Below are positions 37,892 to 39,170 of a DNA stretch of 64,000 bases, one piece after another. The notes beneath the pieces are model-generated. The model was not told the origin of the DNA. It ran no database searches and saw only the letters and a program-made list of their open reading frames with translations. Location: the NCBI GenBank assembly GCA_039815145.1, contig JBCBZW010000012.1:1-64000 (forward strand), in the 5' to 3' direction. Positions within the stretch are counted from its first letter, which is position 1. Each line of letters starts with the position of its first letter. Position numbers and translations under genes: made by a program. Source of the DNA: Pseudomonadota bacterium (GTDB lineage Bacteria; Pseudomonadota; Gammaproteobacteria; Steroidobacterales; JBCBZW01).

Positions 37892-38203
37892 ATGGACACC
37901 GTGTTTCGCGCCGTTTCCGATCCCAGCCGCCGCGCCATCCTCGACCTGTTGAGCGAGGGCGAGCGCACGGTCAACGATCTCCTCGCCCACTTCCGCTTCA
38001 GCCAGCCCGCCCTCTCCAAGCACCTCAAGGTGTTGCGTGAGGCCGGCCTGGTCGAGGCCCGCTCCGCCGGCCGCCAACGGCACTACTCGCTGCAAGCCGA
38101 AGGCCTGCGCTCGGTGGCCGACTGGGTGGCGCACTACGAACGCTTCTGGAACGAGCGCCTGGACGCCCTCGGCGCCGTGCTCGACGAGGAAGCCGCGCCA
38201 TGA
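37892..38203 (+). CDS. ArsR-family transcriptional regulator
   Basis: This 103-residue winged-helix regulator has the typical N-terminus FRAVSDPSRRAILDLLSEGERTV and the recognition region FSQPALSKHLKVLREAGLVEAR. It has no Cys metal-binding motif (ELCVCDL type), so it is of the group that partners SRPBCC proteins and does not sense arsenite. It overlaps the SRPBCC gene by 4 bp. There is no Shine-Dalgarno because the promoter -10 box ends 9 nt before the ATG. Confidence 0.93.
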   Translation: MDTVFRAVSDPSRRAILDLLSEGERTVNDLLAHFRFSQPALSKHLKVLREAGLVEARSAGRQRHYSLQAEGLRSVADWVAHYERFWNERLDALGAVLDEEAAP

Positions 38204-38715
38204 GCACGGGAGGAGGCGTATGCCGCGTCGACCGCTTCTACCCGCACCCGCCCGAGGCCGTCTGGCGCGCACTCACTACGCCGGAGCTGCTCGCGCGCTG
38301 GCTGATGCCCAACGACTTTGCGCCGGTGATAGGCCATCGCTTCACCTTCCGCACGGAGCCCGGCCCCGGCTTCGACGGCGTCGTGCACTGCGAAGTGCTC
38401 GAGCTAGACGCCCCCAGCACCCTGGCCTTCTCCTGGCGCGGCGGCCCCCTCGACACGCACGTGCGCTTCACGCTCGCGCCCGAAGGCGACGGCACCCGCC
38501 TGCACATGGAGCACTCCGGCTTCCGCGGCCTCAAGGCGCGCCTCGTGCAACGGATTCTGCAGATCGGCAATCGCACGCTCTACGGCAAGCGACTGCCCGC
38601 CCTGCTCGACGACACCGCCGGCCCCACGCCGACCGATCAGGCCTGCATGGAGAGCGAACAAGGCCTTTGGGTTCGCATCCTGCGCCTATTCTCTAGTGGG
38701 CCGTTTGGTAAATAA
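38200..38715 (+). CDS. SRPBCC/AHSA1-domain protein with MITE-encoded C-terminus
   Basis: This 171-residue SRPBCC (START-like, AHSA1) protein has an N-terminal RFYPHPPEAVWRALTTPELLARWLMP and a middle FSWRGGPLDTHVRFTLAPEGDGTRL, typical of those paired with ArsR regulators. Ligand and function are unknown. The last residues, after LRLFS, and the stop codon TAA are supplied by the left terminal repeat of a MITE. Without the element the frame would read TCT-AGG-AGA-CGA-TGA and stop on a TGA that overlaps the ATG of the next gene, so the original C-terminus was probably three residues different in length and sequence. Confidence 0.88.
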   Translation: MSTGGGVCRVDRFYPHPPEAVWRALTTPELLARWLMPNDFAPVIGHRFTFRTEPGPGFDGVVHCEVLELDAPSTLAFSWRGGPLDTHVRFTLAPEGDGTRLHMEHSGFRGLKARLVQRILQIGNRTLYGKRLPALLDDTAGPTPTDQACMESEQGLWVRILRLFSSGPFGK

Positions 38716-38857
38716 GGTAGCGCTCAGCGAGCGGGACTGGCGTCAGGGCAAGGCGGGCGAGCGCAGGCATAGCAGCGCTATGGCTGCGCTTGACCAACAC
38801 CGCCATGGCGTCAGTCCCGCTCGCTGAGCGCTACCTTATTTACCAAACGGCCCACTA
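38694..38857. mobile_element. 160-bp MITE with TA duplications
   Basis: The element spans 38696-38855 and is bounded by TA on both sides. Its terminal inverted repeats are perfect for 44 bp, starting GTGGGCCGTTTGGTAAATAA; with the flanking CTA/TAG symmetry the arms are 47 bp (38693-38739 and 38812-38858). The central part carries a smaller inverted repeat, GCGCAG-G-CATAGC with GCTATG-G-CTGCGC. There is no coding capacity. TA duplication and long terminal repeats fit a MITE mobilised by an IS630/Tc1-type transposase, though no such transposase is in the window. The whole unit can fold into one long hairpin. Confidence 0.9.
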
Positions 38858-38864
38858 GGAGACG

Positions 38865-39170
38865 ATGATGAGTGAGACGACCGAGGAACGCGTCATGACC
38901 CTGCACCCCCAAGGCAAGCAGGGGGTGAACATCGAAAAGACCAAGTACGACGGCATGCGCGCGGCACTGCTGCGGGTCATCCCCAAGGACGACGAGGGCG
39001 TCGCCTTCGGTGATCTCAAGACCCTGGTGGAGCCTCACCTCGATCGGCAGGTGTTCACCGCCGACGTGTCCCGAGGCTGGTACGTCACCACGGTGAAGCA
39101 AGATCTGGAGGCGCGCGGCGAGATCGTTCAGGTGCCGCGGTCACGCCCGCAGCGGTTGCGTCGCAGCTGA
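38865..39170 (+). CDS. Small uncharacterised protein (DUF6958-like)
   Basis: This is a 101-residue soluble protein with pattern MTLHPQGKQGVNIEKTKYDGMRAAL and WYVTTVKQDLEARGEIVQVP, resembling a small family with a winged-helix-like shape that I recall as DUF6958. Its function is not known. AGGAGA lies just before the ATGATG start. Before the MITE inserted it would have been the third gene of the ArsR-SRPBCC operon with an ATGA overlap; it is now separated by 149 bp. Confidence 0.75.
   Translation: MMSETTEERVMTLHPQGKQGVNIEKTKYDGMRAALLRVIPKDDEGVAFGDLKTLVEPHLDRQVFTADVSRGWYVTTVKQDLEARGEIVQVPRSRPQRLRRS

Follow-up and report, generated by a model that had tools for sequence, protein, structure and literature searches.

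The 64,000-nt stretch of Steroidobacterales DNA analysed here (the window) carries a three-gene operon with a long palindrome lying across the junction of its second and third genes, which raises the question of whether the palindrome belongs to the operon or was inserted into it, and, if inserted, what it changed and why it came to rest at this position. The features concerned are the following.

37892 to 38203, forward strand: gene for an ArsR-family regulator (PF01022, NF033788), sharing an ATGA overlap with the SRPBCC gene
38200 to 38715, forward strand: SRPBCC/AHSA1 gene (PF08327, E 1.3e-19), its last 6 codons and TAA coming from the junction and the terminal repeat
38693 to 38858, forward strand: MITE copy of 166 bp including the CTAG on either side; G38696 to C38855 spans 160 bp
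38693 to 38696, no strand: left CTAG target-site copy, from sequence reading and empty-site alignment
38693 to 38739, forward strand: left arm of 47 nt, repeated perfectly in inverse orientation at the right end; it holds the 35-nt terminal inverted repeat and the start of hairpin A
38812 to 38858, reverse strand: right arm, identical to the left arm in reverse complement, replacing the B-type end of full-length copies
38855 to 38858, no strand: right CTAG target-site copy, from sequence reading and empty-site alignment
38865 to 39170, forward strand: DUF6958 gene (PF22278, E 5.4e-26), ATGA-overlapped with the SRPBCC gene before the insertion

The segment from 38693 to 38858 is a MITE, a palindromic element flanked by CTAG that is non-autonomous and present in multiple copies. 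It is short, has no transposase gene and ends in terminal inverted repeats, and its junctions read directly as ...CTATTCT-CTAG-TGGGCC... on the left and ...GGCCCA-CTAG-GAGACGATGATG on the right. The 57-nt arms (38693-38749 and 38802-38858) are 95% complementary, and by hand count the outermost 47 nt are perfect from the C of CTAG, or 44 nt from G38696, in agreement with an earlier note on this DNA that had described a 160-bp element with 44-bp perfect terminal repeats. The same note had proposed flanking TA duplications; a duplication is indeed present, but the flanks are CTAG, and since CTAG is its own reverse complement, duplication of the 2-bp TA cannot be distinguished from duplication of the 4-bp CTAG. 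As RNA, the element is predicted to fold with -167 kcal/mol (z = -15; 0 of 200 shuffles were equally good), and this stability, together with related copies in the same genome, argues that the palindrome did not arise by chance.

Further copies, for which the earlier note had suggested a search, were readily found. The window's own genome (G000; 6.0 Mb in 295 contigs) has 11 terminal-repeat ends at up to 3 mismatches and the sole congener examined (G008) has 107 ends, with 0 in the control in both cases, so that the element is dispersed in multiple copies, as a MITE should be. The ends in G000 include two 270-bp copies (C61 and C69) and some single ends, and several are cut by contig ends. Within the order, 5 of 296 genomes gave family matches, while a class-wide search matched 3 of 369 genomes, one of them outside the order (G595). 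Beyond our set for the order, the exact core pattern occurred in 7 stretches of genome contigs, belonging to uncultured Granulosicoccaceae and Woeseiaceae assemblies; neither a viral contig nor a plasmid matched the element, and searching 5 loci returned no Rfam family. Altogether, 46 unique copies of 93-271 bp with both ends were collected from four genomes (3 from G000, 40 from G008, 1 from G108 and 2 from a Granulosicoccaceae assembly), and CTAG is present at nearly all of their ends. No copy encloses a transposase, as zero end pairs were spaced 300 to 2500 bp apart.

The state of the operon before the insertion can be read in the congener, where locus L043 holds the same ArsR-SRPBCC-DUF6958 operon without the element (DUF6958 86% identical). 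The window flanks joined by a single CTAG align to L043 without gaps (TTCTCTAGGAGACGATGATGAG against TTCTCAAGGAGACGACGATGAG), which identifies the target-site duplication from an empty site at one locus, although the congener reads CAAG there. The ancestral CTAG is thus deduced rather than seen, and the window site would have read TCTCTAGGAGACGATG. In the joined flanks the frame runs TTC TCT AGG AGA CGA TGA, with the TGA overlapping the ATG at 38865, and in the congener the SRPBCC protein ends in LRLFSRRRR* and its TGA likewise overlaps the DUF6958 ATG as ATGA. Both the pre-insertion frame proposed earlier and the empty site sought in a relative were therefore recovered, and the proposed likeness to the other overlap of the operon is confirmed by the ATGA at 38200-38203 between the ArsR and SRPBCC genes. 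The claim that the former state is readable with base precision needs some qualification: the reconstruction is right, but in addition to CAAG the congener has a single DUF6958 ATG that aligns with the second window ATG (38868), so that its SRPBCC protein exceeds the reconstructed one by one Arg.

At present the SRPBCC protein ends in LRLFS-SGPFGK*, the element supplying the final codons after LRLFS and the stop codon TAA at 38713-38715, as previously suggested; it measures 171 aa compared to 168 aa for the reconstructed protein, which ends in LRLFSRRR*. The ATGA overlap with DUF6958 has given way to a 149-nt gap holding the hairpin, while the AGGAG ribosome-binding sequence is intact. To say that the operon was broken, as the earlier note did, is accordingly correct for the overlap and too strong otherwise, as both genes are intact. 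We consider it very probable that a MITE inserted at CTAG near the SRPBCC stop codon, with duplication of the target, rewriting of the gene end and replacement of the overlap. In this process, the element would have entered at a CTAG four codons ahead of the stop, duplicating TA or CTAG; reading through the terminal repeat in frame would have replaced RRR-TGA by SGPFGK-TAA, and the former overlap would have become a spacing of 149 nt between the SRPBCC stop and the DUF6958 start. Alternatively, the palindrome might be native to the operon, acting as an attenuator or as a processing or mRNA-stability hairpin, and have been lost by the congener. A hairpin between genes of one transcript can modulate their expression, and the predicted fold is very stable. 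However, the same sequence, again bounded by CTAG on either side, resides at unrelated loci, and the gapless alignment of the congener would demand a precise loss that included one CTAG, leaving a native origin hardly tenable. With the insertion reading, the locus provides a base-precise case of a MITE that rewrites the end of a protein and uncouples two genes that had overlapped as ATGA; a sister species still displays the ancestral state.

Uncoupling of SRPBCC and DUF6958 translation is firmly predicted, and the loss of translational coupling would possibly lower DUF6958 translation. The predicted cost of opening the DUF6958 start region is 7.8-9.2 kcal/mol with the insertion versus 3.4-3.8 kcal/mol for the joined empty site. 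A strong burying of the DUF6958 ribosome-binding site is not claimed, because the congener, which lacks the insertion, is already predicted to require 6.1-6.8 kcal/mol. A simple scan of the element for a terminator or a promoter found none.

The copy in the window differs from its relatives in its right half. Full-length copies (270 bp) have a 35-bp terminal repeat on each side and, between the two, hairpin A and then hairpin B, linked by a short CTTCGGGT joint; they are predicted to adopt a three-way fold (-204 kcal/mol, z -12.7). In a comparison of ten copies drawn from three genomes, both sides of 20 of the 114 predicted pairs had changed in a way that keeps the pair, for which either selection on structure or copying between arms might account. 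Two types of end, A and B, occur, and among the 43 copies of the genus only that in the window has type A on both sides. Over the leftmost 124 nt it agrees with C61 at 119 positions and with C69 at 118. Its right 42 nt, in contrast, repeat the left 42 nt of this copy in reverse complement (42/42) and match the true right ends of C61 and C69 at 35/42 and 34/42 positions only; in addition, a T at position 12 is exclusive to its two arms among the 43 genus copies. By sequence reading, the switch between A and B lies at CAGTC, the inverse of which, GACTG, occurs in the left arm. The comparison of the arms thus identifies the window copy, at the sequence level, as an unusual fold-back derivative, which was presumably generated by a snap-back template switch or by recombination of sister copies. 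Homogenisation of arms as a general process was considered and rejected: private changes common to both ends occur in a minority of copies (6 of 43), several of them at one common variable position. As such copies are few, the fold-back in the window is treated as a single event.

Which enzyme moved the family is less certain. Contrary to the expectation of an IS630/Tc1-type transposase in the same genome, a DDE_3 domain (PF13358) was found 0 times in G000. It was likewise not found in four of five further carrier genomes, and the fifth (G006) has one DDE_3 locus (L109), at which no matching ends were found. In the sister family, 13 of 107 genomes have a DDE_3 match, and of the five DDE_3 loci there with flanking inverted repeats, four (L145, L146, L147 and L149, not L142) start with CTAGTG. 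The best of these repeats, that of L149, has 17 of 25 positions in common with the MITE end, or 13 of 21 beyond CTAG (P 4e-4 for a single comparison, uncorrected for the several ends that were compared). Because CTAGTG termini are common to IS630-family elements of the order, an IS630-family transposase is the likely mobiliser, and the element would have moved by cut-and-paste, with the IS630 (Tc1/mariner-like) enzyme supplied in trans. No autonomous element with CTAGTGGGCCGCTTG ends was found in G000, G008, the five carriers or the 107 sister-family genomes, and the source of the trans-acting transposase may have been lost or left unassembled. We also observed, in G008:C16 (L044 901-1972), an IS630-type DDE_3 remnant that is split by a MITE copy and has a CTAGTG end, CTAGTGTGCTGAGTTAGAAG.

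An origin from the IS5 family, with a 4-bp CTAG duplication, would be an alternative, and PMC3189936 offers a precedent in MITEPsy1 of Pseudomonas syringae, which is tabled there as 'IS5?' and whose target duplication is CTAG or YTAA. MITEPsy1 resembles the present family in being short and in its CTAG duplication and differs from it in its 100-bp length, its terminal repeat GGAAGGTC... and its tabled 'IS5?'. We regard an IS5 origin as unlikely, as the terminal GTG after TA agrees with IS630-family ends of the order and PF13586, the sole IS5-type model tried, matched nothing in G000 or G008, and its matches in G108 and G104 stayed below the cut-off. As for an IS630-type mobiliser, the preference of IS630 from Shigella sonnei for TA within CTAG is given in the title of Tenzen & Ohtsubo 1991, as cited in PMC2170065; the target preference is alike, and the difference lies in IS630 being an autonomous element with a transposase gene. 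A close parallel is RUP of Streptococcus pneumoniae, presented in a review (PMC2229807) as a small palindrome in about 100 copies with TA-containing targets, a MITE mobilised by IS630-Spn1 whose link to the IS630 transposase was drawn from common ends. Our family resembles RUP in being a small palindromic MITE with TA in its target and a probable IS630 link drawn from its ends. Unlike RUP, its autonomous partner was not found, a full-length copy has two inner hairpins and measures 270 bp, and its target is CTAG.

The CTAG target bears on the question of why the copies lie where they do. Sites were classified on joined empty sites using a home-made codon-score gene caller in place of annotation, and comprised 35 of the 46 two-ended copies: 3 copies belonging to other genera were removed, as were 8 whose flank on one side was shorter than 200 bp. 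In the two sister genomes, 17 of the 35 sites coincide exactly with a CTAG that contains the TAG stop codon of a gene, 15 are intergenic and 3, including that of the window, are coding but only 14-18 nt from the gene end (the other two genes encode a sulfotransferase and an OmpA-family protein); 0 of 35 are in a gene interior. Of the 17 genes at stop sites, 15 have a Pfam match over the curated cut-off, one has weak TPR matches only and one has none. As background, a 400-kb sample of G008 contains 772 CTAG sites (68 stop, 266 intergenic and 438 coding, with 3 of the coding ones in the last 18 nt), against which the avoidance of gene interiors by the MITE is strong (p = 7e-13). Divergent, promoter-bearing gaps are also depleted (1 of 15 MITE sites versus 74 of 216 in the background), as expected from selection against promoter damage. 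Most of this site spectrum is, in our reading, explained by CTAG specificity and purifying selection, that is, the loss of harmful insertions; a preference for CTAG combined with selection against damage to genes and promoters would leave survivors mainly at gene 3' ends and in gaps.

Relative to intergenic sites, MITE sites at stop codons are also more frequent than the availability of CTAG would give (OR 4.4, p = 1.1e-4), and remain so against a near-gene non-repeat null (OR 4.2, p = 3.4e-4) and in an end-by-end count with single ends (29 of 108 versus 62 of 548 non-coding sides, p = 1e-4). One might speculate that stop codons serve as landing pads and that the excess stems from an active preference for translated 3' ends or a usefulness there, which we judge rather improbable. 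That the hairpin is of use at stop codons, by protecting the 3' end of the mRNA or by termination, and that copies gather there for this reason, appears more doubtful still: the excess and the three-way fold of full-length copies, kept through the compensatory changes described above, would fit such a role, but with the window as sole null (13 stop and 15 intergenic CTAG) there is no stop enrichment (p = 0.8), among sites no more than 50 nt from a gene 3' end the excess (17:3 versus 58:30) is not significant (p = 0.11), the depletion of divergent gaps is already expected from selection, and the element lacks a T-run terminator. In a sample of G008 (L110-L129), TAG ends 111 of 301 called genes and CTAG ends 73 of 301. 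The share of TAG among stop codons in this sample is high against the usual expectation. CTAG is sparse within genes yet ends about a quarter of those in the sample; on the landing-pad reading, an insertion at such a stop would re-create the TAG and leave the protein whole, with a very stable hairpin immediately downstream.

Insertions at gene 3' ends have been described before: according to PMC5896051, QMITE1 and QMITE2 of Coxiella burnetii insert at the 3' ends of functional genes, where they add or change C-terminal codons, and the authors call the reason for this pattern unknown. QMITE1 and QMITE2 have direct repeats of variable sequence there, in contrast to the fixed CTAG target found here, which points to TAG stop codons as a possible reason for 3'-end insertions. 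A CTAG-specific mobiliser would thus be a simple, testable reason for bacterial MITEs to gather at gene 3' ends. In kind the element is ordinary, as IS630-related MITEs (RUP), 3'-end insertions (QMITE) and CTAG duplication (MITEPsy1, IS630) are already in print; the open-licence full texts searched yielded neither this family nor a MITE described at CTAG stop codons.

Several further observations were made alongside. At L074 1501-1688 in G008, one CTAG provides the stop codon of two converging genes and the inserted MITE leaves each of them a TAG; the partner gene converging on the site encodes a glyoxalase. In G006:C5, a lone terminal-repeat-like sequence (L028 1501-1525, 23 of 25 matching) supplies both the C-terminal codons and stop (PPSGPLDE*) of one gene and the AAGGAG ahead of the next. 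The two genes are presumably RnfG-like and RnfE-like, respectively, and the sequence may be either a remnant or a chance match. The genome outside the order, G595, carries a 173-bp CTAG-flanked element with similar ends (L130 1500-1672). Finally, G008 contains a second short repeat family of 165 bp, CTAG-flanked and with ends CTAGTGTCCTGAGTTAGAAGTTCG (also read as CTAGTGTCCTGAGTTAGAAG), which often directly adjoins the first. Copies of it lie at the following positions.

L036, 1334-1498: second-family copy
L092, 136-300: second-family copy
L098, 2022-2186: second-family copy
L103, 2180-2344: second-family copy
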